18,997 nt of DNA from Chloroflexota bacterium (lineage in GTDB: Bacteria > Chloroflexota > DTOL01 > JACQYG01): the NCBI GenBank assembly GCA_016208345.1, contig JACQYG010000001.1, forward strand, positions 1 to 18,997, written 5' to 3'. Positions 5,219 through 18,721 of the stretch are shown here, one piece after another. The notes under the pieces are model-generated. The model was not told where the DNA came from. It did not search any database and saw only the letters and a list, made by a program, of their open reading frames with translations. Positions within the stretch are counted from its first letter, which is position 1; each line of letters begins with the position of its first letter. Position numbers and translations under genes: made by a program.

Positions 5219-5239
5219 GGACAAGTTGGCAACTTGTCC
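5219..5239. repeat. Palindromic repeat at the ccmC 3' end
   Basis: GGACAAGTTG and CAACTTGTCC form a 10-bp perfect inverted repeat around a single central base. It directly overlaps the end of the ccmC stop codon. It is one of several different short palindromes placed at gene ends in this window. Confidence 0.75.
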
Positions 5240-5856
5240 TACATGCTATTTTTCCAACCCTGGTCCCAAGCCCGCTGCGCCTTGAGGCTTGCCACTTGTG
5301 ACCGAAGAGTCTCCAAGCTCACCCGTAAAGCTAGCAGGTAGAAGAAGACCAGAGTCATAGCTACCATGCCCACGATGAAGGCGACCAGCATGGGCGGCGC
5401 CAGGCCAATCCTCCCCGGCTCGAAGAGCACCGGGTGGATGGTACGCCACCAGCGAATCGCCATGAAGACAATGGGCACATCAGCGAATCCGGCGATGCCG
5501 AAGACGGCAGCAAAGCGCGCCCGCCGGTCGGGGTCGTCCAGGCTGTTGCGCAGCATCAGATAGGCCACGTAGATCAGCCAGAGTACCAGGGTGGTGGTCA
5601 GGCGAGGGTCCCAGGTCCACCAGGTGCCCCAGATGGGTTTAGCCCAGATAGAGCCGGTGATCAGTCCCAGGGAGCAGAAGACCACGCCGATCTCCGCCGA
5701 GCTGTGGGCCAGGATGTCCCAGCGAAGTTCTCGTTTCTAGAATATGCGCTGCACGATCCCCATCTGCCGCTCCGTGGGCACCCAGACGAGGATGAGATAG
5801 ATGGAGAAGAGTACAGCAATCAGAGCCACTCCGCCCAGCAATTTGATTCCTCTCAT
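5239..5856 (-). pseudogene. ccmC: CcmC heme-delivery membrane protein, interrupted by in-frame UAG and missing an internal segment
   Basis: CcmC binds heme with its WWD loop and loads it onto CcmE. From the ATG at 5856 the frame reads MRGIKLLGG, a first helix, then PTERQMGIVQRIF and a TAG at 5737-5739. It resumes in the same frame with KRELRWDILAHSSAEIGVVF and continues through WGTWWTWDPRLTTTLVLW (WWD motif), DVPIVF and WWRTIHP (second conserved His) to the end. In the family, QRIF is followed by YFHVPxAW and a whole helix of roughly 27 residues before the K/R-rich linker. That block, with the first conserved His, is absent. The TA of the tyrosine codon joined to a G explains the UAG. A deletion of a multiple of three is the simplest reading; an assembly error is possible. 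Re-initiation at GTG 5685 would give only a C-terminal piece. Confidence 0.8.
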
Positions 5857-5867
5857 CCGTATCTTGT

Positions 5868-6596
5868 TTACTCCCCTATTACATACTCAAAGACCAGCAG
5901 GCCAATCACCAGATAGATCACGTCAAAGGTTGCCAGCAGTTGTAGCCAATTGGCTGCATCGGCCAGGTTGCCGGCCAGGGCTGCTCCGCTGGCCTTCACC
6001 GCCCCGATCAACACTGGCGACAGCACTGGAAAGAGCAAGATGGGGAGCAGCACCTCCCGCGCCCGCGTGTTCACCGACATAGCGGCGAAGAGTGTCCCCA
6101 CTGCTGCGAAGCCAACCGTTCCCAGGACCACCACCGGCAGCAGAGGAAGGATAAGGATAGGCAGATTAAAAAAGACCGAGAAGAGGGGGAGCGTCACCAC
6201 TTCCATGGCCGCCATGAAGATGACAGCGGAGAGCATTTTGCCCAGGTAAAGGACATTTCGGTCAACAGGGCAGAGGAGCAGCCCCTCCAGGCAGCCCCGA
6301 TCCTTCTCCAGCACGAAGCAGCGGTTCAGCCCCAGCACGCCAGCGAAGGTGATGGCCACCCACAATGCCCCTGGGGCGATGGCCGCCACGCTCTCCACCC
6401 GTAGCTCAAAAGCAAAGTTGAAGATCACCAAGGAGAGGACGGCGAAGACGAACATGGCCGTGAAGATCTCCTTGGTGCGCACCTCGGCGGCGATGTCTTT
6501 GCGGACAATGGCGATGATTTGGCCGATGGCAGATGGCGAGTAGCAAATGGCGGATGGCCAATGGCTGATAGCAGATGACTGATGGCCAACGGCCAA
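5868..6596 (-). CDS. ccmB: CcmB heme-exporter permease subunit, start uncertain
   Basis: Membrane subunit of the CcmAB ABC transporter that releases heme-loaded CcmE. Homology starts at QIIAIVRKDIAAEVRTKE (about 6521) and covers six hydrophobic segments, with FVLEKDRGCLEGLLLCPVDR, LGKMLSA, the glycine-rich middle and LLPILLFPVLSP, for about 218 residues, the normal CcmB length. No ATG or GTG lies at the expected place, because eleven heptamer repeats occupy 6522-6598. The nearest in-frame start outside or at the edge of the repeat is TTG at 6596, which would put about 25 repeat-encoded residues on the N terminus; the open frame runs back to 6680 inside ccmA. It follows ccmA and precedes ccmC by 11 nt. 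Confidence 0.88.
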   Translation of the reverse strand: MAVGHQSSAISHWPSAICYSPSAIGQIIAIVRKDIAAEVRTKEIFTAMFVFAVLSLVIFNFAFELRVESVAAIAPGALWVAITFAGVLGLNRCFVLEKDRGCLEGLLLCPVDRNVLYLGKMLSAVIFMAAMEVVTLPLFSVFFNLPILILPLLPVVVLGTVGFAAVGTLFAAMSVNTRAREVLLPILLFPVLSPVLIGAVKASGAALAGNLADAANWLQLLATFDVIYLVIGLLVFEYVIGE

Positions 6597-6598
6597 TG
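6522..6598 (-). repeat. Eleven degenerate heptamers (consensus CATYNGC) at the 5' end of ccmB
   Basis: Read on the minus strand from 6598 the sequence divides into exact seven-base steps: CATTGGC, CGTTGGC, CATCAGT, CATCTGC, TATCAGC, CATTGGC, CATCCGC, CATTTGC, TACTCGC, CATCTGC, CATCGGC. The 77-bp array ends at the first conserved CcmB codon and begins 8 nt after the ccmA stop. Seven is not a multiple of three, so unit gain or loss would shift any translated frame. Confidence 0.85.
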
Positions 6599-6606
6599 GT
6601 TCCGCG

Positions 6607-7362
6607 TCAGGCAAGATTGTTCTCCGAAAATCCTCTCGCAGGTTCCGGCACCTGCGGGGCAGATTTGCAAAACCTGGCATATAGTTGGCGGAAGCCTTCG
6701 TTGGAGAGGGCAGCGCGCTCTCCCTGATAGACGATGCGCCCGCCGGAAAGGATAGCTACCCGATCGGCCAATTCCAGGCCCCGCTCCAAATTGTGGGTAG
6801 TAAAGAGCACTGCCCGGCGTCGGCCATCGGCTTCAACCAAGGCTCCTTGCAAGAGAGGGGTGGCCTCCTGATCCAGGCCCGTGTCCGGCTCGTCCAGGAG
6901 CAGGATCGGCGGGTCGTGGAGCAGGGCCCGGGCCAGGGCCAGGCGCTGTTGCATGCCACGAGAGTAGGTGCGCACGGGATCGCGGCGACGAGCCCACAGC
7001 CCCATCTGCTTCAAGAGGGTGGCCATGCACCCCGCCGCATTGTGCAGGCCGTACATACGAGCATAGAAGGTCAGGTTCTCCTCAGCCGTCAGGTCATCGT
7101 AGAGATAGGTCTGATGCCCCATCACGCCAATATGCCGCCGCGTTGGCTCCTCTCCTTTAGCCAGGTCGTACCCTCCCAGGAGCACGCTACCGGCCGAGGG
7201 CCGGATGAGGCCGGCCAGAATCCGGATCAGCGTAGTCTTCCCCGCCCCATTGGGCCCGAAGAGGGCCACGAACTCTCCCAGCCGTACCTGTAGATCTACC
7301 CCCTGCAATACCTGTCGTGGGCCAAAGGATTTCTTCAGGCCAATAGCTTCAACGGCGAACAT
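6607..7362 (-). CDS. ccmA: CcmA, ATP-binding subunit of the cytochrome c maturation ABC transporter, 251 aa
   Basis: Cytoplasmic ATPase that powers release of holo-CcmE from CcmC/CcmD. It has Walker A GPNGAGKT at 36-43, the Q-loop region near GHQTYLYDDLTAEENL, the ABC signature written as YSRGMQQR (133-140, in place of LSGGQ, as is usual for CcmA and related exporters), Walker B LLLDEPDTGLD at 154-164, and the switch H190. The ATG is at 7362 and the stop is TGA at 6607-6609. It is followed by ccmB in the standard order. Its tail beyond about residue 225 (KSAPQVPEPARGFSENNLA) is probably disordered. Confidence 0.93.
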   Translation of the reverse strand: MFAVEAIGLKKSFGPRQVLQGVDLQVRLGEFVALFGPNGAGKTTLIRILAGLIRPSAGSVLLGGYDLAKGEEPTRRHIGVMGHQTYLYDDLTAEENLTFYARMYGLHNAAGCMATLLKQMGLWARRRDPVRTYSRGMQQRLALARALLHDPPILLLDEPDTGLDQEATPLLQGALVEADGRRRAVLFTTHNLERGLELADRVAILSGGRIVYQGERAALSNEGFRQLYARFCKSAPQVPEPARGFSENNLA

Positions 7363-7374
7363 AACAGGCTTCCC

Positions 7375-8595
7375 TCATTTCTCCCTCATTATCGCCGCCA
7401 GCCGTCTCTTCAACCTGGCTCTTTCCGCTCGGTACTCCTCTTCGCCAATGTCCCCAGCCTCGTAACGGTCATCCAGGTCGGCGATGGCCAGGATGAGAGA
7501 GGCCCGATCCTCAACGACCCGAGCCGTCTCGGTGGGCACCGCTTGAGCGCGACGCCGCTGCAAGGCATAGCCCAGGGCGATGACCACCGCCAGCACTCCC
7601 AGGCCCACCAGCACCACCCTGTACAGGGCGTTCTGGTCGGTGGTGCTGGTGTAGCTCCTCTCCTCCGTGGTTGCTGCTGGGCCAGGCGAAGCCACCGACG
7701 GGAGTTTGGCGGGTATGTTGCTGAAGTCCACGGTCACCTCTGTCCCCCTGGCCAGGTTCTGGCCAGCCAGGTGCAAGTAATTGGTCCCCTGGCCGCTCAT
7801 CCTCTCCCTGGCCACCAACACCGTGCTGGTGATGACCTGCCCCACATCAGGGACCAGAAAACTCAGGTTGCTCACGGCATAATCCAGCTTGCGGCTGAAG
7901 TGAGCCGTGGGCGAGCTCAGAGGCAGGTTGTAGGAGAAGAGCACCGGCTGCATCCCCGGCAGGATAGGCGTGGTGGCCGTGAAGGCATCGCCGCCGAAGA
8001 CCACCCCCTCTAGGCCCTGGCCATACTCCACATTTTTTGCCCCCTTAGGCAGGGAGAAGCGTAAGGTGGCCCGCTGCCCATCGGTGATCGGCTCGCCGGA
8101 GCCGATGAAGGTACGGTCGCCGGTGTTTTGGAAGATGTAGAACTCGGAGGTCTGCAAGGCTCCCTGCACCAGGTCGGCCAGGATATGCACCCGCTGAACG
8201 GAGACCTGAGCGTCGCTGTTTGTGCCCTCGTAGACCTCCAGGAGTACAGGTAGGGTGGTCTGGTCTTTGGCAAACCCCGCCGGTTCACTGCTGTACTCCA
8301 CTCCTTGGTAATAGGTCAAGACCGTATAGCTATAGCTCCCCGTCGCCGAAAGGTCAGCGAACCGGAAAGCCCCGGCAGCATCGGCCTGGGCGGTGCGTTT
8401 CTCTACCAGACTGGTCTCCTGGTGAATGTGTAGGGTCACCGGCAGATTGCCCACAGGGCCGCCGCCTGCCGTCTTATTGATCACCTGGCCCCGGATCATC
8501 CCCTTGCCATCATCGGCCCAGGCCAGAGTGGTCAGGAGCGTCAAGGCAAGGAACATCAAGGCCATGAACGAAAGAGCCAGCGCCTTTCTCCCCAC
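7375..8595 (-). CDS. Unknown exported protein: signal peptide, ectodomain, one helix, SHOCT-like cytoplasmic tail, 406 aa
   Basis: I do not recognise a named family for the whole protein. Residues 1-27 look like a signal peptide ending LAWA-DD. Residues 33-120 resemble a beta-sandwich of the carboxypeptidase-regulatory/transthyretin type (IRGQVINKT..., then GAFRFADLSATGSYSYTV). A larger beta-rich region extends to about 300, one helix lies at about 325-345, and the tail contains LDDRYEAGDIGEEEYRAERARLKRRL, like SHOCT or CcmI-type helical hairpins. The start is GTG at 8595, chosen because AAGGAGG lies seven nt upstream. It is 12 nt from ccmA and in line with the array. Topology parallels the 305-residue protein at 13618-14535. 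It may be a membrane scaffold or redox sensor for maturation (inference). Confidence 0.8.
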   Translation of the reverse strand: MGRKALALSFMALMFLALTLLTTLAWADDGKGMIRGQVINKTAGGGPVGNLPVTLHIHQETSLVEKRTAQADAAGAFRFADLSATGSYSYTVLTYYQGVEYSSEPAGFAKDQTTLPVLLEVYEGTNSDAQVSVQRVHILADLVQGALQTSEFYIFQNTGDRTFIGSGEPITDGQRATLRFSLPKGAKNVEYGQGLEGVVFGGDAFTATTPILPGMQPVLFSYNLPLSSPTAHFSRKLDYAVSNLSFLVPDVGQVITSTVLVARERMSGQGTNYLHLAGQNLARGTEVTVDFSNIPAKLPSVASPGPAATTEERSYTSTTDQNALYRVVLVGLGVLAVVIALGYALQRRRAQAVPTETARVVEDRASLILAIADLDDRYEAGDIGEEEYRAERARLKRRLAAIMREK

Positions 8596-8619
8596 TTAGT
8601 TGCCTCCTTGCGCAGTGAG

Positions 8620-9219
8620 TCATAGCTTTTGGCCGCACCTGGCGCAGAAGCGATCCCCCTCCTGGAACACCGCCCCGCACGATGAGCAACTCCTGGACAG
8701 AGCGGCGCCGCAGTGGCGACAGAAGGCGTCGCCAATATCGTAAGCCATCCCACAGCGAGAGCAGATTAGCGTCGCTGGCTTTCCCTTAGATACCGCCACC
8801 TGTTTGGGCTGGTGACGCGATGGAATTGGGGCCCCCGTGTCTACGCCAACACCGGCCCGCCGGGCCTGGCGCACCGCCGCCACCTCCCGTTCAATCTCGT
8901 CCTCGTCGCCCAGAGCCTCGCTAGACTCCACTACGGGCGCCAACTTTGGCTGCTCGTCCAAGGCCTTGAGGATGGCCACAGCCTTGCGGGTGTAGCGTTC
9001 CCGCAAATCGGTGTGGTCCTTGCCGGAGAGATTGCCCATCTCGTGGTCAAAATCCAACTCTTTGATAGAAGCATAGACGGCATCCCGCTGAGCCCTCAGC
9101 GACTCCATAGCGGTCTCGCCTGCCACAGTCAGGGCCTCCTCTGTCCTCGCCTTGAAAAGCGGATACCCGGCGGCCGCTATGGCCACTCCCGCTAAAACCA
9201 CGGTGAAAATGATCTCCAT
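8620..9219 (-). CDS. CcmI-like membrane protein with two C-terminal zinc ribbons, 199 aa
   Basis: The N-terminal helix (about 4-20) is followed by a coiled helical hairpin, RDAVYASIKELDFDHEMGNLSGKDHTDLRERY, which matches the beginning of CcmI/CycH proteins that help present apocytochrome for heme ligation. Instead of TPR repeats the C terminus has two zinc-ribbon modules: C153/C156/C167/C170 and C178/C181/C192/C195. The ATG at 9219 has GGGAGA upstream; the stop is TGA. Short CcmI-like proteins ending in zinc ribbons fit the apparently reduced System I here. The metal binding is inferred from cysteine spacing only. It lies between ccmH and the 406-residue protein. Confidence 0.82.
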   Translation of the reverse strand: MEIIFTVVLAGVAIAAAGYPLFKARTEEALTVAGETAMESLRAQRDAVYASIKELDFDHEMGNLSGKDHTDLRERYTRKAVAILKALDEQPKLAPVVESSEALGDEDEIEREVAAVRQARRAGVGVDTGAPIPSRHQPKQVAVSKGKPATLICSRCGMAYDIGDAFCRHCGAALSRSCSSCGAVFQEGDRFCARCGQKL

Positions 9220-9237
9220 ACGCTATATCTCCCATCA

Positions 9238-9289
9238 GTCGCTTGAAGCGACCGTCTCAGATAGGTTCAAGCTGGCTTGAAGTCAGCTT
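9238..9289. repeat. Two tandem palindromes with a common CTTGAAG core
   Basis: GTCGCTT-G-AAGCGAC (9238-9252) is followed by AAGCTGGCTTGAAGTCAGCTT-type pairing (9269-9289: stem AAGCTG/CAGCTT extended through a G-U pair). Both are centred on CTTGAAG, lie between ccmH and the ccmI-like gene, and could form consecutive hairpins in the transcript. No U-run follows. Confidence 0.65.
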
Positions 9290-9324
9290 CCGCTCGACTC
9301 AGCCGACGAATTCTATCCAAGGGC

Positions 9325-9792
9325 TCACTTAAACGCCGCCAGATCCCGCCGCAGCCGCTCCTCGTACTCAGCCACTTCGGCATCGGCCACCTCTTCCACG
9401 GTCACCTCTTCCAGTTCCTGGCCGCGGAAGACCCATTTGCGCAGAGCCAGGTACACCGCCCCAGCTCCCAGGACAATCCCGGCGAAGGGGACAACCCAGG
9501 CTGCCAGGTTAAAGCCTTTCTTCGTGGGTGTGGATAACACCACCTCGCCGTACTGGCCTACAAAGTAGGCCAGGATTTCCTCTTTGCTCTTACCCTGGTC
9601 CAGTATTGCTTTGATCGTCTGGCGCATCTGCTCTGCCGTGCCGCAATCGCAGGAGGCTACCGTCTTGGTGCAGCCGCACTGGCACATCAACTCGTTGGCG
9701 ATGGCATCCACCGCCCCATCGGCCAGGGCAGGGGTGGCGATCATCAGGTTGAGGAATCCCACCAATAAGATGGTCAGTAAGATACGTTTCAT
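9325..9792 (-). CDS. ccmH: CcmH-type cytochrome c biogenesis protein with Cys-rich variant motif, 155 aa
   Basis: Membrane-anchored, periplasmic-side thiol protein that reduces or holds apocytochrome CXXCH before heme attachment. It has a signal peptide/anchor at 1-24 and the short helical CcmH domain with ANELMCQCGCTKTVASCDCG. The family's classical LRCxxC is replaced by C37, C39, C41 plus C48, C50. EQMRQTIKAILDQGKSKEEILAYFVGQYGEVVLSTP follows, typical of CcmH/CycL. A helix lies at about 96-116, then an acidic tail. It starts 5 nt after the ccmF stop. Confidence 0.9.
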   Translation of the reverse strand: MKRILLTILLVGFLNLMIATPALADGAVDAIANELMCQCGCTKTVASCDCGTAEQMRQTIKAILDQGKSKEEILAYFVGQYGEVVLSTPTKKGFNLAAWVVPFAGIVLGAGAVYLALRKWVFRGQELEEVTVEEVADAEVAEYEERLRRDLAAFK

Positions 9793-9797
9793 CGCAC

Positions 9798-11750
9798 TCA
9801 GCCCCCTCCCACCCTTTCTCTTCTATCCGGCAGGAAGGCGATCACCGTCCCAAAGAGCAGCACCACCCCACCGATCCAGATCCAGACCACCATGGGATTG
9901 ACGATGAGACGGAAATTGGCCGTGCCGTCGTCCTCCCAACCGGTCAGGATGAGATACAGGTCTTCAATGAGGGTGGTGCGCACGTCCACTTCGGTGTTGG
10001 GCTGCTCGTGGCCCCGGTGGAACTCCTTGGCTGGGGCCATGTTCCCCAGGTACTTGCCGTTCTGACTCACCTCAAGGTTAGCCGCCACCACCTGCTTGCT
10101 GGCGGTAGGATACTGGTTGAGTCCCTTGTAGGTCAAGTTGTAATCCTTTACCGTGGCCGATTCACCCGGTCGCAGGGTCACCTGGTTCTCCACTTTGTAT
10201 AGCGACGAAGCCGCCACGCCCACGGCGATGAGGATGATCCCCAGGTGCACGAAGTAGCCGCCATAGCGGGGCTTGTTCTGCCAGATCAGGTTGAAGAAGG
10301 CGGCCAGATAGCCCTCGCTTAAGGTGCGGTGCCGCGCTCGAGTCCCTCGGTAGAACTCTAATAGAATTGTCGCGACGACGAACACACACAGGGAGAAGGC
10401 CACCACGGCGTAGCTTTCACGGATGCCGCCCACGAAAAGCACCAGTGCGAAAACCATGGTGGCGATGAAAGGATATAGAAAGTTGCGGATCAGGTTCTCC
10501 GTGGAGGCCCGCCGCCACCCAATGAGGGGGCAGATGCCCATGAGGACGATAATGGCCAGGAAGATTGGCGCATTCACCTGGTTGAAGAAAGGCGGGCCCA
10601 CAGTGATCTTCACGCCCCGCACCGCCTCGGAGACCAAGGGGAAGACCGTTCCCCAGAAGGTGGCAAAGGCTGCTCCCACTAGCAAGAGGTTATTGAAGAG
10701 GAAGCTAGACTCCCGGGAGACGAGGCTGTCCAACTCGTTCTCGCTCTGGAGCCTATCCAACCGTTCCACTAGCAGGGCCACGGAGAAGATGACGATCAGC
10801 CCGAGGAAGCCCACGAACATCGGCCCGATGTTGCTCTGGCCAAAGGTGTGCACGGAAGAGAGGATGCCAGAGCGGGTGAGCATCGTCCCAAAGATAGAGA
10901 GGGCGAAGGTAACGATGATCAGCACCATGTTCCAGACCTTGAGCGCACTCCGGCGCTGCTGGATCATCACCGAGTGCAGGTAGGCCGTGCCGGTGAGCCA
11001 GGGCATGAAGGAAGCCGATTCCACCGGATCCCATCCCCAGTAGCCGCCCCAACCTAGTTCCACGTAGGCCCATTGGGCCCCGAAGAGGTTCCCCAGCCCC
11101 AGGAAGAACCAGGCGAAGAGCGTCCAGCGACGGGTGCTCTTGAGCCATTCGCTCCCCAAGTTGCCAGTGATGAGCGCCGCCATGGCGAAGGCGTAGGGTA
11201 TGGTGAAGCCCACGTAGCCCAGGTAGAGGGTGGTGGGGTGAAAGAACATCCCCGGATTCTGCAATAATGGATTCAAGCCATTGCCATCGGGTGGGGTGAC
11301 CGCCAGCCGGGTGAAGGGGCTGGCGATGAAGGTGAGCAGGAAGAGAAAGAAGGTCTCCGTGCCCATCATCACGGCCATGACGTAAGGCATGAGGTCCCGG
11401 TGTCGCTCCCGGTTCTGCCAGACGACCACGGTGGCTAAGATGGCCAGTGTCCAGGCCCAGAGGAGAAGTGATCCCTCGTTGCCGCCCCAGAAAGCAGAGA
11501 TGGTATAAAAGAGCGTCATGTCTCGGCTGGAGTACTCGGCCACGTACTTCAGGGAGAAGTCCCGGCCAATCAAGGCATACAAGAGGGCGATAGATGCGAT
11601 GGTGGTAAAGGCAGCCACCACATAGATGCTGTTGCGGCTGCTCTGCAAGAGTTCCCCATATCCCTTGCGCACCGCCAGCAAAGCGGCCACCATAGCATAG
11701 GCCGCTACCAACGGGCTGACCAGTAAAGCTGCATTGCTGAGATCAGGCAT
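9798..11750 (-). CDS. ccmF: CcmF heme lyase component, 650 aa
   Basis: Large polytopic protein that, with CcmH/CcmI, transfers heme from CcmE to the apocytochrome on the outer side of the membrane. It has FWGGNEGSLLLW at 88-99, GMFFHPTTLYLGYVG (conserved H171), the WWD heme-handling motif WGGYWGWDPVESASFMPW at about 234-251, H259 in TAYLHS, TRSGILSSVHTFG further on, and a soluble domain before the last helix (RPGESATVKDYNLTYKG...). The length matches CcmF. I chose the ATG at 11750 because GGAGGTAATA sits directly before it; an upstream in-frame TTG at 11762 has no such support. The stop is an ordinary TGA, showing UGA is read as stop here. Confidence 0.95.
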   Translation of the reverse strand: MPDLSNAALLVSPLVAAYAMVAALLAVRKGYGELLQSSRNSIYVVAAFTTIASIALLYALIGRDFSLKYVAEYSSRDMTLFYTISAFWGGNEGSLLLWAWTLAILATVVVWQNRERHRDLMPYVMAVMMGTETFFLFLLTFIASPFTRLAVTPPDGNGLNPLLQNPGMFFHPTTLYLGYVGFTIPYAFAMAALITGNLGSEWLKSTRRWTLFAWFFLGLGNLFGAQWAYVELGWGGYWGWDPVESASFMPWLTGTAYLHSVMIQQRRSALKVWNMVLIIVTFALSIFGTMLTRSGILSSVHTFGQSNIGPMFVGFLGLIVIFSVALLVERLDRLQSENELDSLVSRESSFLFNNLLLVGAAFATFWGTVFPLVSEAVRGVKITVGPPFFNQVNAPIFLAIIVLMGICPLIGWRRASTENLIRNFLYPFIATMVFALVLFVGGIRESYAVVAFSLCVFVVATILLEFYRGTRARHRTLSEGYLAAFFNLIWQNKPRYGGYFVHLGIILIAVGVAASSLYKVENQVTLRPGESATVKDYNLTYKGLNQYPTASKQVVAANLEVSQNGKYLGNMAPAKEFHRGHEQPNTEVDVRTTLIEDLYLILTGWEDDGTANFRLIVNPMVVWIWIGGVVLLFGTVIAFLPDRRERVGGG

Positions 11751-11762
11751 TATTACCTCCAA

Positions 11763-11882
11763 AGATGTGACAAGCTATGCCATTCAAGCCTATAAGCAAA
11801 GGTTATAACCGGTTTCTTGGCGACCTTTGTTTCGTTGCTATAAAATCTTGTCTCATCTGCACAAAATCGGATGTCAAGGAGT
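11763..11882 (-). other. ccmF leader with overlapping palindromes
   Basis: 120 nt AT-rich spacer upstream of ccmF. It contains the perfect palindrome GGTTATAACC (11801-11810), which overlaps AACCGGTT (11807-11814), a possible operator. A minus-strand TTGACA lies at 11872-11877 but has no -10 at proper distance, so I do not claim a promoter. Confidence 0.35.
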
Positions 11883-12047
11883 TTAGAGTGGTCTATGCCG
11901 CCAGTATTCCGAAGAACCCTTCTCCGGCGGTTTTTCCTTCATCTGGTGTATCTGTCGTCGCCAGGCCTCCTCGTTGAAGCCGCTGGCCTGCCACATGCCG
12001 TTCAAGAAGGACCGTACCGCTGTCCACAACGCTCTCAGTTTTTCCAT
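11883..12047 (-). CDS. Small unknown protein, 54 aa
   Basis: The start at ATG 12047 is supported by GGGAGG about six nt upstream. The peptide begins MEKLRALWTAVRSFLNGMWQ, an amphipathic helix with aromatic residues, then GFNEEAWRRQIHQMKEKPPE and an end rich in Trp, Arg and His (EYWRHRPL). It has no convincing transmembrane segment and no cysteines. It lies between ccmE and ccmF in the same direction, so it is probably co-transcribed. There is a faint resemblance in size and layout to the YbdD/YjiX group of small proteins, which I do not consider established. The frame continues back to 12110, but those extra codons come from a repeat. Confidence 0.6.
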   Translation of the reverse strand: MEKLRALWTAVRSFLNGMWQASGFNEEAWRRQIHQMKEKPPEKGSSEYWRHRPL

Positions 12048-12063
12048 GATACCTCCCGATTTG

Positions 12064-12120
12064 AACCACCAAGGCACGAAGATACAAACGAAAACTTGGC
12101 GTCTTAGCATCTTCGTGGTG
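12064..12120. repeat. Dispersed ACCACGAAGA-type inverted repeat
   Basis: CACGAAGAT (12075-12083) and ATCTTCGTG (12109-12117) form 9-bp arms 25 nt apart, flanked by further partial complementarity (ACCACC/GGTGGT type). On the minus strand it reads ACCACGAAGATGCTAAGACG and then an inverted copy. The pattern resembles short dispersed repeats with tandem ACGAAG units known between genes of several phyla. It separates ccmE from the 54-residue gene. Confidence 0.65.
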
Positions 12121-12162
12121 AGCTATTTTTTAACCTTCGCCGTGGGCACTGCGTATAAGGAA

Positions 12163-12603
12163 CTACTCCGGCTCGTACTTGGATGGGCATTTAGCGAAGA
12201 GTTGGCTGGCCTGGAAAACGCCGTTGGCGTCCAGCTTGCCCTCGACCACCACGTCGGCTCCCTCTTTGAAAGTATCCGGGATTACTCCTCTGTAGGCCAC
12301 AAGCACCGTTTTGGTGGGGTCTTTCTCGTCGTAGGCCAAGAAGCGCAGGGTCATGATGCGATTGTCTCGCTGGATGGAGCCTTCTTGCACCTTGCCGGCC
12401 AGGCGTACTCCCTGGCCCACCACCTCGGCCTGGCGGGCCTTTAGCTCGCCCACCGTCAGGTAGTACATCATGTTACCCTGGAAGGCGTTCAAACCCAGGG
12501 CGGTGATGGCCAGCACTACAATCCCCACGCCCAAAAGCAGCTTCAATTTATTGGCCTTAAGCCAGCCTCGGCCCACGGGCCGCGTCGCCTCTGCCACAGC
12601 CAT
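12163..12603 (-). CDS. ccmE: CcmE heme chaperone, Cys-type (CPxxY), 146 aa
   Basis: Membrane-anchored heme chaperone: an N-terminal helix (about 20-40) and an OB-fold domain facing outward, with YYLTVGELKA, VRLAGKVQEGSI and VVVEGKLDANGVFQASQLFAKCPSKYEPE. Classical CcmE binds heme through His in HxxxY. Here the position is C139 with Y143 (CPSKY), the variant described for archaea and some bacteria. The start is ATG 12603, chosen because GGAGG lies about nine nt upstream. It is 24 nt downstream of a second CcmE and is the more typical of the two. Confidence 0.93.
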   Translation of the reverse strand: MAVAEATRPVGRGWLKANKLKLLLGVGIVVLAITALGLNAFQGNMMYYLTVGELKARQAEVVGQGVRLAGKVQEGSIQRDNRIMTLRFLAYDEKDPTKTVLVAYRGVIPDTFKEGADVVVEGKLDANGVFQASQLFAKCPSKYEPE

Positions 12604-12627
12604 GGATACACCTCCACCAATCAACCG

Positions 12628-13023
12628 TTATTGCGGCAAATAGCTGTGCGGGCACTTCAATAGCACCTGTGTTGCCTGAAAAACACCATCACGCCCCAGA
12701 CGGCCTTCGGCGATAGCCACGACGCCGGCCTTGAAACCATCGGGTGCTGTGCCCCGGTAAACGACCGGTAGCGCCTGCCCGGTCGCACCATCGTCGCTGA
12801 GGTGAAACCGCAGGAGTCCCTGGCGTTTGTCCCATTCCACCGAACCAGCCACGACTGTGCCTCCCACACGGGAACCCTCGCTGTAGGCAGCCTCGCCCTT
12901 GGCCTGTAGCTCGCTCACCGTCAGGTAATAGACCCGGGTCATATCATACCAGCCACGTACCCCCAGGCCCAACAACGCCACCACGATAACCGCCAGTCCC
13001 CACAGCCACCTCCTCCGCCGCAC
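12628..13023 (-). CDS. ccmE: Second CcmE paralogue, Cys-type (CPxxY), about 131 aa
   Basis: Same fold as the neighbour: a basic N terminus, a helix at about 7-23, then VYYLTVSELQAKGE, SRVGGTVVAGSVEW, and at the end GRLGRDGVFQATQVLLKCPHSYLPQ with C124 and Y128 as the predicted heme ligand pair. Divergence from the downstream copy is large, so this is an old duplication or a division of labour rather than a recent tandem copy. The start is GTG 13023, preceded by GGGGAGGGG. The frame runs on to a TTG at 13062, but those codons come from a palindromic repeat. It ends 24 nt before the other ccmE. Confidence 0.88.
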   Translation of the reverse strand: MRRRRWLWGLAVIVVALLGLGVRGWYDMTRVYYLTVSELQAKGEAAYSEGSRVGGTVVAGSVEWDKRQGLLRFHLSDDGATGQALPVVYRGTAPDGFKAGVVAIAEGRLGRDGVFQATQVLLKCPHSYLPQ

Positions 13024-13040
13024 TCTCCCCTCCCCACCTA

Positions 13041-13063
13041 ATTGCAAATCGAAAATCTGCAAT
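13041..13063. repeat. Palindromic repeat 5' of the second ccmE
   Basis: ATTGCAAAT and ATCTGCAAT are inverted 9-mers with one mismatch around CGAAA. It begins 5 nt after the stop codon of the 180-residue gene, again at a gene end. Confidence 0.6.
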
Positions 13064-14554: not shown

Positions 14555-14962
14555 CTACTCTATGGGCGGCGTGTCGGTTGGCCTGCCGTATTCCTGATAC
14601 TTGGCGTCCAGCCGTGCCCGCACCTCTTTCAGGGATAGCCCCTCCTTGCGCCAGGCCTCAGCGTCCAGGGCGATCTTGCCGCAGAGGTCGCAGGTAGCCC
14701 CATGTTCCTCAAAGCGACCGTCGGGCTTGATGAAGCATTCCTTCAGGTTGCGATGCGGCGGATTGGCCGACTGCACACAACCGCAATAGCAGGGCATTTT
14801 CTCTAAGAAGACCGGCGAACGCACCGCCAGGCGATATGACTCCAGACTGGTGGCCGAGGTGTAGACAAAGGCTGGAAAGCTCCCCACTTTTTCCGACTTC
14901 CCACATCCGGCCAGCACCACTCCTAGCGCAGTAAGCATTAGCAGGACGTATCTTTCCTTCAT
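14555..14962 (-). CDS. PCYCGC-motif lipoprotein, 135 aa
   Basis: Small lipoprotein of the PCYCGC family. The start is ATG 14962 (TGAGGAA before it), not the longer frame to 15109, which overlaps the Fe-S protein gene. The signal peptide ends at lipobox LAGC with C20. The motif PCYCGC is at 57-62 in EKMPCYCGCVQSANPPHRNL, with C76 and a further pair CDLC at 91-94, so seven cysteines are available outside the lipid anchor; several CxC/CxxC pairs suggest metal or thiol-redox function. The lipobox cysteine would be acylated by the Lgt encoded at 17936-18721. The function of the family is not established to my knowledge. It is 17 nt after the NapH-like gene. Confidence 0.85.
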   Translation of the reverse strand: MKERYVLLMLTALGVVLAGCGKSEKVGSFPAFVYTSATSLESYRLAVRSPVFLEKMPCYCGCVQSANPPHRNLKECFIKPDGRFEEHGATCDLCGKIALDAEAWRKEGLSLKEVRARLDAKYQEYGRPTDTPPIE

Positions 14963-14979
14963 TTCCTCAGTTTCGTCTC

Positions 14980-16359
14980 TTAGTGTCCATGCCTGGGGTT
15001 CATCGGCAAAAGGAACATGACCAGGTAGGCCAACGAGAAGAATCCCAGCAAGGCAAAATGCGGCCAGGCCGTGATCGCCGCTCTCCCCTCTCGCTTGACT
15101 ATACGCCAAAGGACGTAGGCAGAAGCACCAATGCCTATCGCCAGCACCATGATGGTCAGAACCGTCACCGTGCTAAAATCTGGGGGAGCGTCCGTCAGCG
15201 CCTCCGGCACCAGGCTAATCGGGATGCCCAACTGGTTCAACGCCGTCTGGATCGCCCTTGGCCCCTCCAAAAGAAGGTGCGAGAAGTTGTGCCCCAGGTG
15301 TCCAGAAAGGGCCAGGGGAATATAGGCATAGCCAAAGCGGGCGAAGATGGTGGCCAGTCCTACGCCACTCAGCCGCCCTGAGGCCCAGGCTGCCACCAGG
15401 TAGCTTCCCAGCCCCAGGGCGATGACCGCGCCAAAGGTAGCGGTGAAGGCAGCGTTGTAGCCTACCAGGGGGGTGTTTTCCACCACCGCCTTCATGTAAT
15501 CGCCCCAGGGTAGGGTCATGTCTATAGTCTGCAAATAGACCAGGGCTACCATCAGCACCGCAAGGGTAGACTCGGCTACCAAGGAGTGACGAAAGAGCCA
15601 AAGTTCCTGGCCCGGTGGGCGCGGTGCCAGGGCGATGGCCCCGTGCTGGCAGCTCTTCAGGCAATTCCCACAGAGATTGCAGTTGCGATTAGAGTCCATC
15701 GTCTGGGGGAACTCATAGAGCGGGCAACTGGCGTAGCAGGCCTTAGTCCTGCAGGTCTGGCATATGGCCTTATCCGCCCGTAGCTCCACAGCAGCGGTGG
15801 TGGCGTAGATGCCGGAGAGGGCCCCCAACGGGCAGAGATAACGGCACCAGGCCCGCTGCCGGTAGAGGAGGCTCATCAGCAGGGCACCGAGCATCAGGAT
15901 GAGCAGGAGTACCCCTGTGGCCCTGGGTGAGCCGATGATGCTAAAGGTACGGTCCACCCAGGCCAGTGCGGCGAAGGTGAAGACCATGAGCCAGACACCG
16001 TAGCGTTTCAGCCAGGCTCCAGGCTGGCGCCCCGCGGCCAGGCCCAGCCGCGCTCCCGGCTCCTGAGCCCAGGAGCCGATCGCCGCCAACGGACAGATAG
16101 CACACCAGGCTCGCCCCAGAAAGAGAAAACTCCAGGGTAAGAGCGGCCACCACAACGTCCAGGTTACCACCGTGGCAAAGTTGCGGGCCGGGCGGATGGT
16201 GCCAAAGAAGGCGAAGTACAAGACCAAGACCAGCCCCAGGACAGTGGCAATCTGAAAGATCGATGGCCAGAAACGGCTGTACGAGAAGGCCCGGAGAGGG
16301 TAGAAACGCAGCAGGCCACCCTCACTGGGTCGTGAGATAGACAGCAGCGTGGTTTTCAA
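14980..16359 (-). CDS. NapH/CcoG-like polytopic Fe-S membrane protein, 459 aa
   Basis: Membrane electron-transfer protein. It has hydrophobic segments and two membrane-boundary CxxC/CxxxC motifs: GRAWCAICPL (C86, C89) and WCRYLCPLGALSG (C172, C176). A cytoplasmic-type ferredoxin pair follows: C200/C203/C208/C212 and C227/C230/C233/C237 (CNLCGNCLKSCQHGAI), for two [4Fe-4S] clusters. The C-terminal half has five or so helices with histidines (LSGHLGHNFSHLLLEG) that could bind heme or metal. The likely role is to pass electrons across the membrane to the neighbouring thiol/selenol proteins (inference). The start is TTG 16359, with only a distant GAGGG, so it is uncertain. It ends MNPRHGH. Confidence 0.87.
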   Translation of the reverse strand: MKTTLLSISRPSEGGLLRFYPLRAFSYSRFWPSIFQIATVLGLVLVLYFAFFGTIRPARNFATVVTWTLWWPLLPWSFLFLGRAWCAICPLAAIGSWAQEPGARLGLAAGRQPGAWLKRYGVWLMVFTFAALAWVDRTFSIIGSPRATGVLLLILMLGALLMSLLYRQRAWCRYLCPLGALSGIYATTAAVELRADKAICQTCRTKACYASCPLYEFPQTMDSNRNCNLCGNCLKSCQHGAIALAPRPPGQELWLFRHSLVAESTLAVLMVALVYLQTIDMTLPWGDYMKAVVENTPLVGYNAAFTATFGAVIALGLGSYLVAAWASGRLSGVGLATIFARFGYAYIPLALSGHLGHNFSHLLLEGPRAIQTALNQLGIPISLVPEALTDAPPDFSTVTVLTIMVLAIGIGASAYVLWRIVKREGRAAITAWPHFALLGFFSLAYLVMFLLPMNPRHGH

Positions 16360-16398
16360 CTGTATGAATTCCCTCGAATGGGTAACGCGGTGAATCTT

Positions 16399-16422
16399 CG
16401 CGTCTCCGTGTCTCCGCGTCTC
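16399..16422. repeat. Three 8-bp tandem units CGYGTCTC after the selenoprotein stop
   Basis: CGCGTCTC, CGTGTCTC, CGCGTCTC abut the stop codon of the gene at 16423-17091 exactly. On the minus strand it reads as GAGACGCG/GAGACACG units, a type of low-complexity dispersed repeat often seen between genes. Confidence 0.7.
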
Positions 16423-17091
16423 TTACGGCTTCCCCCCAGGTGGTGGGATCCAGTTGGAGCGGACCCGCACCTCCTGGGTAGGCGAAACAGGATCGTTAGA
16501 ATGCATGGCGATGACAAACAAGTGCGGCCCCCCCATCCCCTCGTGCATGGTGAAGGGCGCGGCGATAAAGCTGCTCTCCCCTGGTCTCAATGTCGTCGTA
16601 CCGACGAACACCTCGGGTGGTCAGCACCCCTCTAACGTTTTAGCGATGGCGGGTGGCCGCATGGTCAGGGTGGCGTCACCCACATTGCGCACTGTCCAGG
16701 TAGCAACGACGTGCTGCTCGTAGACCAACGTCCCCAGGTCCAGATCAGGCTTCTCCACCTCCAAACGAGGGCCGCCGACATAGCTCGGCTTATAGCCGAG
16801 GGGTGGGGGTATGGGGGTGGCCATGGGACGGGGCGTCATGGTAGGCTCCAGCCAGATCGCGGTCACCGCCGGAACAGGTAAGGATGGTTGAGATGTTGTC
16901 GGCGTGGGCGACGGAGTGGTTGGTGACGGTGTCCGGTTCCCACGACCGACCAAAACGGCTGCTCCCAGAAGAAGCCCGCCGACCAGGCCGAAATAGGGCC
17001 ACAAGCGAGATGCCTTTGACGGTTCACGTTTCTTGCTCTTATGGACCCGTTTGCCTGTACGCCCCTGCAGCGGGTGGTGATTCTTAGACAT
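16423..17091 (-). CDS. Predicted selenoprotein: membrane-anchored DUF1573/Ig-like protein with Cys-Sec motif, 222 aa
   Basis: One reading frame from ATG 17091 (GGAGAAGA before it) to TAA 16423-16425, crossed by a single UGA at 16621-16623. It has a basic N terminus, one helix (about 33-48), a Thr/Pro-rich linker (about 51-100), then an Ig-like domain RLEVEKPDLDLGTLVYEQHVV... in which the UGA codes residue 157 directly after C156 (KTLEGC-U-PPEVFVG). After the UGA the domain continues coherently: LRPGESSFIAAPFTMHEGMGGPHLFVIAM. I recall a double-cysteine GCCPP motif at this place in related proteins, so Sec replaces the second Cys. A hairpin at 16591-16610 gives a suitable SECIS. The function is probably thiol/selenol redox or metal binding on the outer face. 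A nonsense mutation is the alternative. Confidence 0.82.
16591..16610 (-). promoter_or_regulatory. Candidate bacterial SECIS element of the Cys-Sec protein
   Basis: On the minus strand TGTTCGTCG, loop GTA, CGACGACA: six pairs, one bulged U, two more pairs. The loop begins with G and lies 19 nt after the UGA (16621-16623), inside the spacing usual for bacterial SECIS. A bulged U in the stem is a feature needed for SelB recognition in E. coli. Confidence 0.7.
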
Positions 17092-17241
17092 TCTTCTCCA
17101 TCATCCTGCCTTTTTTCGCTCACCAATAGGATATACTATGGTGGAATGCCTGCCCGGGCCAGGCAGGCTCCCCCATCGGTCACGGATGGCACAGGTGGAA
17201 TGGGGGAGCGCCCGGCGTCCTCACCATCACCTCCCTTCCGC
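17092..17241 (-). other. Intergenic region between the two selenoprotein genes, with two nested hairpins
   Basis: GCCTGCC/GGCAGGC (17148-17168) and CTCCCCCAT/ATGGGGGAG (17168-17208) are adjacent stems. A direct repeat GGTGGAATG occurs at 17140-17148 and 17194-17202. No U-run follows on the minus strand, so this may be a transcript-processing or pausing site rather than a terminator. No ORF is supported here. Confidence 0.5.
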
Positions 17242-17850
17242 TTATCGTTGCCCCAGGAGTGCCTGGATGTCCTTCTCCAAGGTCTTCTTGCTCGTGGCCC
17301 CCAGGTATAGGCTGTAGATTGTCCCTTGCGGTGTGACGAAGACGCTGAGGGGATGCCCGGTCAGGCGGTAGGCCTGTATCACCTGGGCATCGGCCATCAA
17401 GTTAAGGTAGTTGACCCTGTTGGCCTGAACGAAGGCGCGTACGGTGGACACATCCTCATCGCCAGCGTCTATGGCCAGGATCACTAGGCCCTTCTCGCCA
17501 TACTCTTTCTGGAGTTCGATGAGGGATGGAACCATCCCTCGGCACCACCCTCACCAGGTGGCCCAGAAGAAAAGCATCACCGACTGCCCCCGGAATTGGG
17601 ACAGGGTTACAGTGCGCCCATCCAAGTCCTTGAGGCTGAAATCTGGCGCTTTGGCCCCCGGGTCGACGTCTTCTGCCCTCGTGGATGGCGATGGTGGCAA
17701 GGAGGCTGACCCCGCTTCGCCTGGTGTACTGGTTGCCGACAAGGGTACAGCGGCCGGCCGGACGCGCCCGGCAATAAGGCCCACAGCGCCGATGCCCACG
17801 AGCATGAGAATCAGGAGCACTATATAAAGACGCCGCCTGCCATCCTGCAT
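17242..17850 (-). CDS. Predicted selenoprotein: membrane-anchored thioredoxin-like protein (CcmG/ResA type) with UxxC, 202 aa
   Basis: Thiol-disulfide protein facing outward, expected to keep apocytochrome or CcmH cysteines reduced. The start is ATG 17850, behind GGAGGAGG. A helix at about 8-27 is followed by a Ser/Pro-rich linker and the TlpA/ResA-like domain from [20 protein letters not shown]. The active site reads [19 protein letters not shown]: the codon at 17551-17553 takes the place of the first Cys of CxxC, giving U100-G-W-C103. The rest is intact: [19 protein letters not shown], the cis-Pro segment [22 protein letters not shown], then TAA. A perfect hairpin at 17521-17540 is the likely SECIS. 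Read as two ORFs, the halves would cut the catalytic motif. It is 85 nt after lgt. Confidence 0.87.
17521..17540 (-). promoter_or_regulatory. Candidate bacterial SECIS element of the UxxC thioredoxin-like gene
   Basis: On the minus strand GAGGGATG, loop GTTC, CATCCCTC: a perfect 8-bp stem (9 if the G-C next to the loop is paired). The loop starts with G and lies 18 nt after the UGA at 17551-17553. The hairpin is within the coding sequence, as bacterial SECIS elements are. Confidence 0.75.
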
Positions 17851-17916
17851 ACCATAACCTCCTCCGCAGGTAGTACGGTGTAGGGTAGGAGGCCAATCAC
17901 ATTGACCGCCTCGGGC

Positions 17917-17933
17917 GCCCAATACGATTGGGC
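17917..17933. repeat. Palindromic repeat 2 nt after the lgt stop
   Basis: GCCCAAT-ACG-ATTGGGC, a perfect 7-bp inverted repeat with a 3-nt loop. It could act as a weak transcript-end hairpin for lgt; no U-run follows. Confidence 0.65.
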
Positions 17934-17935
17934 TT

Positions 17936-18721
17936 CTACCCGCTAGGTTGAACAGTGCGACGCCGCATCAGATAACAGGCCAGGGGCAGGGCAATGACCA
18001 CCACAGCAAGCCCAATCACCTGTGCCTGGCGCAGCCCAAAGAGCGCGATGGTGTCCTCCCGCAGGAATGAGATGAAGACCCGCCCGGCAGAGTAGAGGGC
18101 AAAGCAGAGCAAGAGGAGCACCCCGTCGGTCTGGAAGCGTTTGCGCATTGCCCAGACCACAGCGAAGACGACCAGTGTCCAGAGAAGCTCGTAGGCCTGG
18201 GCCGGATGGCGAGGGACATCGTTTATGGGAGCCATGCTGTATGGGCTCGTCCAGACCACTCCCCAGGGGAGCGTGGTACGTGTGCCGTAGTTGCAGCCAT
18301 TGATCAGGCAGCCGATGCGCCCGATGGCCTGACCCAGGGGAAGGGCAGGGGCCGCCACGTCAGCCAGTTTCCAGAATGAGACCTTATTCCAGAGACTATA
18401 GGCCGCCACCGCCACCAGGCCACCCACCAGGGCCCCATAGATGGCCAGGCCGCTGAAGCGCAAGCCGAGGATCTCACCAGGGTTTTGGGAATAATAGTCC
18501 CAAAAGTCCAGGATATGGAAGACCCGCGCTCCCAGGAATCCGACAATAATGGCCCACGTGGCTACATCGTAAATGAGGTCGGTGGCTATACCCTTGCGCT
18601 TTGCCTCCCTGAGGGCGATGAAAAGACCCGTGGCAATCCCCAGGGCGATCATTACGCCATACCAGCGCACCTCCAAATGGCCGATGCGCAGCAGCACAGG
18701 GTCAATGGCGATGGTAAACAT
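17936..18721 (-). CDS. lgt: Prolipoprotein diacylglyceryl transferase, 261 aa
   Basis: Inner-membrane enzyme that transfers diacylglycerol from phosphatidylglycerol to the lipobox cysteine of prolipoproteins. It starts [22 protein letters not shown], typical of Lgt, and shows [11 protein letters not shown] near 91-101 and the Lgt signature [13 protein letters not shown] at 134-146 (the conserved Arg and Asn are present), then [11 protein letters not shown] and the C-terminal [14 protein letters not shown]. Seven hydrophobic segments and the length fit the family. There is no clear Shine-Dalgarno before ATG 18721. The product is needed for lipoproteins such as the PCYCGC protein at 14555-14962; this may be why it lies at the head of the array. 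Confidence 0.95.

Follow-up and report, generated by a model that had tools for sequence, protein, structure and literature searches.

The window analysed here is a stretch of 18,997 nucleotides from a Chloroflexota bacterium. Two open reading frames on its minus strand, 16621..17091 (156 residues, ending in ...KTLEGC) and 16423..16611, lie in one frame and are parted only by a UGA, as the earlier note had observed. When this TGA is read as a residue, a single frame of 222 amino acids with one recoded codon results. The UGA (16623-16621) directly follows the codon for Cys156, in agreement with the earlier placement of the UGA after a cysteine in a GCxPP motif. The motif here is EGC-U-PP, with Cys156 and Sec157 as a vicinal pair. 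The nearest genome has a counterpart that is 97% identical over its full length and carries the same TGA. The evidence described below makes it almost certain that this is a real selenoprotein gene with Sec inserted at UGA 157 (Table 1).

According to the structure prediction, the protein consists of a basic N-terminus, a helix (residues 33-48), a Pro/Thr-rich linker and one domain that begins at about residue 104. The predicted domain is a single Ig domain of the PapD/ASH type and holds the Cys156-Sec157 pair, so the one continuous Ig-like domain noticed earlier is borne out by the predicted fold. The product is very probably a membrane selenoprotein, in which the 222-residue chain would be exported and anchored. 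The structure matches listed for it are PapD/ASH/HYDIN-type proteins and other enzymes; no known copper chaperone, neither Sco nor PCuAC, is among them. The designation 'DUF1573-like', proposed earlier, holds for relatives, several of which carry the PF07610 label, but the window protein itself reaches only 18.6 bits against PF07610, below the gathering cut-off of 26.1, and is below the PF22544 cut-off too. Both labels, PF07610 and PF22544, are found on many relatives among the 120 proteins listed out of 153. The protein is similar in sequence, and probably in fold, to the DUF1573 and HYDIN-VesB-CFA65-like Ig domains, from which it differs in having EGC-U instead of SCGCT.

The gene is surrounded by genes for redox and cytochrome maturation proteins (Table 1). 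The upstream TlpA/ResA-like redoxin gene also has an in-frame TGA, with a hairpin downstream of it, and its counterpart in the sister locus L094 has the TGA as well; 'second adjacent selenoprotein', as the earlier note called the gene studied here, is therefore a fair description. A scan for promoters and terminators revealed nothing of note.

Table 1. Features of the selenoprotein locus and its surroundings; positions are those of the window.
Feature	Position	Strand	Remarks
DUF1573-like selenoprotein gene (almost certain)	16423..17091	-	ATG start, TAA stop; 222 aa with one Sec
In-frame UGA, almost certainly read as Sec, residue 157, right after Cys156	16621..16623	-	TGA in 70/80 relatives, Cys codon in 10/80
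Predicted helix after basic N-terminus, likely membrane anchor	16948..16995 (codons 33-48)	-	Low pLDDT; anchoring inferred
Met/His loop MHEGMGGPH, candidate metal ligands	16522..16548 (codons 182-190)	-	Conservation in set A2
Bacterial SECIS-type hairpin	16590..16611	-	6 bp, GUA loop, unpaired U, 3 bp; covariation and energy
TlpA/ResA-like redoxin with in-frame UGA at 17551-17553, WATW-U-GWC	17242..17922	-	Recurs only in sister locus L094
NapH-like membrane protein, 4Fe-4S motifs, next gene downstream	14980..16359	-	Directly downstream in 11/81 loci
PCYCGC-motif protein (PF13798), Cys form	14555..15109	-	E 1.3e-20; start codon uncertain
Cytochrome c maturation genes (CcmC, CcmB, CcmA-like ABC ATPase, CcmH, CcmF, CcmE, others)	5239..13062	-	Same orientation
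Lgt, prolipoprotein diacylglyceryl transferase	17936..18721	-	PF01790, E 1.1e-67

Relatives are numerous. When 400 genomes from the phylum were searched, 34 had a match. The 25 matches at E <= 3e-23 come from 20 genomes; every one of them has an in-frame TGA, accompanied in a single case by a TAA. In the group around the NC10 genome G412, 29 of 95 genomes match, and one TGA is present in each of the 21 matches at E <= 1.1e-31. In the best 80 of the 131 relatives found on genome contigs, the column of the UGA is occupied by TGA (70), TGC (6) or TGT (4) and by no other codon. The earlier note had proposed a profile search for homologues with GCC-PP versus GCU-PP; in this set, ten relatives have cysteine at the UGA position. 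The relatives belong mostly to the Chloroflexota, followed by Methylomirabilota/NC10 and Rokubacteria, with one Gemmatimonadetes and two actinobacterial bins; one labelled Pseudomonadota is placed by the tree among Anaerolineales. The tree, which is built on few columns and has many unresolved forks, needs five changes between Sec and Cys, of which at least two are forced.

Several relatives depart from the common layout. Tandem two-domain forms occur in some of P0015-P0059 and in L114 and L146; several of them combine a first domain bearing GCD with a second one that stops at GC or has GCU. The sister genome contains a second, diverged member (L056:66-533, G002:C277) with the motif ESCUPQ, in which Sec is kept and the Met/His loop is lost. 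A weaker relative, L079:855-902 (G128:C226), with GCT-U and a similar hairpin, perhaps represents a further Sec position; it is included in the DNA set A3 and absent from the protein set A2, whose 32 rows come from a profile or a protein search. Four motif matches due to chance were removed from a separate list of candidates. A second gene copy in genome G111 is frameshifted, lies near a contig end and may be an assembly overlap.

The ratio dN/dS downstream of the hairpin is at most 0.28 in all 14 computable pairs out of 17, the other three having saturated dS. On these ratios, selection downstream of the UGA is purifying, and the constraint past the UGA that the earlier note had made a test of its reading is kept. 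The source genome, a 2.1 Mb draft made up of 366 contigs, has the selB and selC genes to which the note had also looked: tRNA-Sec scores 75.4 bits and SelB is over its cut-off. SelA (578 bits) and SelD (367 bits) are present as well, each of the four being over the cut-off. The SelD gene (G000:C160:622-1554) has an in-frame TGA and probably encodes a selenoprotein itself. As a marker separating Sec from Cys genomes SelA is weak: it is over the cut-off in 30 of 38 genomes of the Sec type and in 6 of 10 of the Cys type. The eight Sec-type genomes in which it falls short count against the selenoprotein reading, although they are draft assemblies.

The hairpin downstream of the UGA has all three properties ascribed to it earlier, namely the bulged U, the GTA loop and the 19-nt spacing. 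The loop G is 19 nt past the UGA and the unpaired U stands before three further pairs. Bacterial SECIS elements are expected 16-37 nt after the UGA and have a small loop with a G in its first two positions and a minimum free energy of -7.5 kcal/mol or lower (PMC13188914). The window hairpin fits these rules (19 nt, loop GUA, -7.8 kcal/mol), although another structure has the lowest energy when all 48 nt are folded together. Folding energy was dropped as proof because the hairpin alone is within the range of shuffled sequences (z -1.5; 17 of 200 shuffles fold equally well). An Rfam search of 16200-17950 returned five chance-like matches and no SECIS family.

The case for the hairpin lies in its covariation across relatives. 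The paired alignment columns after the UGA are 16-22 with 26-32. In the 47 Sec rows of set A5 (46 of the 70 TGA loci plus the window), 94.8% of the cells are paired, compared to a shuffled mean of 81.8, and there are 54 double-change cells against 16.1 in shuffles, a number that none of 500 shuffles attained. Paired cells, double changes and the covariation score each exceed all 500 shuffles. With the register slid by three columns, 71.1% of the cells are still paired. In a previous set of 27 rows, 90.7% of the cells were paired and double changes numbered 44, against 16.9 when shuffled. The ten Cys rows carry no hairpin signal (38.6% paired versus 38.5% in shuffles); Sec genes show the covariation proposed as a check, whereas Cys genes do not. 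Six of the seven hairpin pairs are retained in two of the Cys genes, L115 and L125, which group with the Sec gene L123 in the tree; this looks like a recent change from Sec to Cys that has left a relic hairpin.

Other readings of the UGA can be weighed against these data. It could be a true stop, in which case the locus would be a truncated gene, a split gene or a pseudogene. UGA does terminate 6 of the 22 window ORFs tabulated, the folding energy of the window hairpin is no better than that of the shuffles mentioned above, and ...GC is the exact C-terminal end of 75 of 125 retrieved database proteins, which shows that gene callers cut the family at the UGA. Nevertheless, the column never contains TAA or TAG, the Cys homologues read straight through it, a covarying hairpin and purifying selection lie downstream, and a domain ending there would lack its last three long strands as predicted. 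The true stop was rejected on these grounds and is very improbable. A tryptophan inserted under an altered code has a still smaller, almost negligible probability. GCW does occur at the site in 2 of the 125 database proteins, P0003 and P0016, which are probably code 4 gene calls. TGG, however, is found there in none of the 80 genome loci, the six ORFs ending in UGA indicate that the code is not generally changed, and the genome has tRNA-Sec and the Sel proteins; this reading was rejected as well. The earlier interpretation of the gene as encoding a selenoprotein with a Cys-Sec pair is thus upheld.

The statement that no described family accounts for the protein requires qualification. A DUF1573 selenoprotein with the motif UGC has already been listed (PMC9312934, PMC13188914); the GCU type, however, is absent from the selenoprotein table of the review (PMC13188914), where different Sec positions are counted as separate subfamilies. 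Judging from where the review tables list it, the UGC-type protein (PF07610) is probably the family NF041425 OS_HP2 of NCBIfam. It has the same type of domain, has its Sec near the same Gly-Cys pair and likewise has Cys homologues. Its Sec, however, is two residues before the Cys, where the usual CGC has its first cysteine, whereas that of the window protein comes right after the second Cys. NF041425 was expected to claim the family but did not: the window protein has no match to it at E <= 0.1 (cut-off 100 bits), and none of 101 genomes of the phylum and none of 95 genomes of the Methylomirabilota group has a protein over the cut-off. Two genomes that contain an EGCUPP gene also have a DUF1573-type gene with another motif, TSUGCT in G465 (L175, G465:C69) and PTUDCT in G450 (L184, G450:C34). 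The selenoproteins SaoL, SaoC, HgcA, KCU-star, MbdU and the Csac_0668 family share the vicinal 'CU' pair, but the descriptions in the review table set them apart as having other domains (PMC13188914). Among titles and abstracts, no paper was found that describes the EGC-U DUF1573-like group, or that joins selenium to copper or cytochrome assembly. The EGC-U group is a new subfamily within a known fold.

The neighbourhood of the gene was analysed in 81 loci (the best 80 of 131 relatives and the window); flanks of 5 kb on either side were available for 45 of the 80. Electron-transfer proteins are the most frequent neighbours: a cluster of CuA/COX2-type and cytochrome c proteins in 50 loci, a PCYCGC protein in 43 and a NapH-like protein in 39. 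One close group makes up 36 of the 81 loci. Outside it, the 22 loci with full flanks contain the CuA protein in 14, the PCYCGC protein in 14 and the NapH-like protein in 8, and at least one of the three in 19. The CuA/cytochrome c gene is directly upstream in 43 of 80 loci. COX2, the CuA domain, was found by Pfam in four members of this cluster (in one of them just at the cut-off), three of which also have cytochrome c; the cluster also includes short proteins of the COX2 type that lack cytochrome c. In P0023, a PCYCGC domain is naturally fused to a DUF1573-like GCCPP domain. The TlpA-like redoxin was dropped as a general partner; L173 has a distant Cys redoxin elsewhere.

A search of 21 genomes for the CuA/cytochrome c protein gave matches in 12. 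The 13 full-type copies come from ten genomes, all belonging to one family, and each is no more than about 220 bp away from the selenoprotein gene; one of them, in G111 close to the end of a contig, may result from overlapping assembly. Another five matches, partial and weaker, do not adjoin the gene. The other nine genomes, namely the window's own, its sister G002 and seven more, lack the protein at E <= 1e-10.

The loop at residues 182-190 is the other conserved feature of the domain. Of the 32 rows of set A2, 31 have Met182, 31 Met186 and 31 His190, while 27 have His183; the row that departs from the motif is the paralogue L056. L094-L173 were left out of these figures because they had been retrieved by that very motif. 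The conserved residues and the linkage to CuA genes suggest that the Met/His loop and the Cys-Sec pair may bind copper.

For the function, we tentatively favour, with slightly less than even confidence, a copper or redox service to extracytoplasmic CuA/cytochrome proteins. The hairpin just past UGA 157 would enable SelB and tRNA-Sec to insert Sec at this codon, and the Ig-domain protein would sit outside the cytoplasm, anchored in the membrane. Cys156 and Sec157 would form a vicinal thiol-selenol pair serving copper- and cytochrome-containing electron-transfer proteins outside the membrane, the CuA/cytochrome c fusion, the PCYCGC protein and the NapH-like iron-sulfur membrane protein being the recurrent putative partners. 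The pair might hold Cu(I), with or beside the loop, and pass it to the CuA site; or, during copper loading, it might maintain the cysteines of CuA and of haem attachment in the reduced state. In this scheme, both the partner and the direction in which copper is passed are inferred. That Cys156, Sec157, Met182, Met186 and His190 make up a selenium-containing Cu(I) site in a CuA assembly or repair factor is a narrower proposal and a rather doubtful one. Counted against copper are the limitation of the strict CuA linkage to ten genomes of one family, the missing CuA partner in the window's own genome, and the paralogue L056 with Sec and no Met/His motif. The protein would resemble the periplasmic copper chaperones Sco and PCuAC in its proposed role, its soft ligands and its place beside CuA genes; the structure matches, as noted, contain neither.

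The protein might instead be a metal-free thiol-selenol oxidoreductase, which is plausible enough to be kept in mind without being probable. Its Cys-Sec pair would cycle between a selenenylsulfide and the reduced form, taking electrons from the membrane via a NapH-like or TlpA-like neighbour, and would reduce disulfides of periplasmic proteins such as cytochrome c and the PCYCGC proteins. Redox partners are indeed near (the NapH-like protein, the Ccm genes and, in the window and L094, the U-GWC redoxin), and the replacement of Sec by Cys in 10 of 80 relatives is usual for redox selenoproteins. The GCUG end of mammalian thioredoxin reductase is a vicinal Cys-Sec redox centre, also preceded by Gly, and a selenenylsulfide could form in both proteins; that centre is at the C-terminus of a flavoprotein and the present one is inside an Ig domain. 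The nearly invariant Met, Met and His of the loop and the strict linkage to CuA proteins would be left unexplained, and the TlpA neighbour is close by in just two of the 81 loci, the window and L094. A different task altogether, such as the binding of mercury, arsenic or selenium compounds, or a structural role, is quite unlikely. Several 'CU' families do belong to organometal systems (SaoL, SaoC, SaoB and HgcA; PMC13188914) and HMA-type metal ATPases are encoded nearby in 23 of the 81 loci, but the prevalence of electron-transfer proteins among the neighbours argues against it.

The EGC-U proteins add to the prokaryotic selenoproteome a widespread group, found in environmental bacteria of several phyla beside copper and cytochrome genes. 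With Sec occurring at two places of one fold, both in G465 and in G450, it becomes possible to test how a position for Sec is chosen within a fold. A role of selenium in copper or cytochrome assembly is suggested by the linkage to CuA/cytochrome c genes, and if the proposed Cu(I) site is real, selenium would serve as a ligand that moves copper outside the cell membrane.
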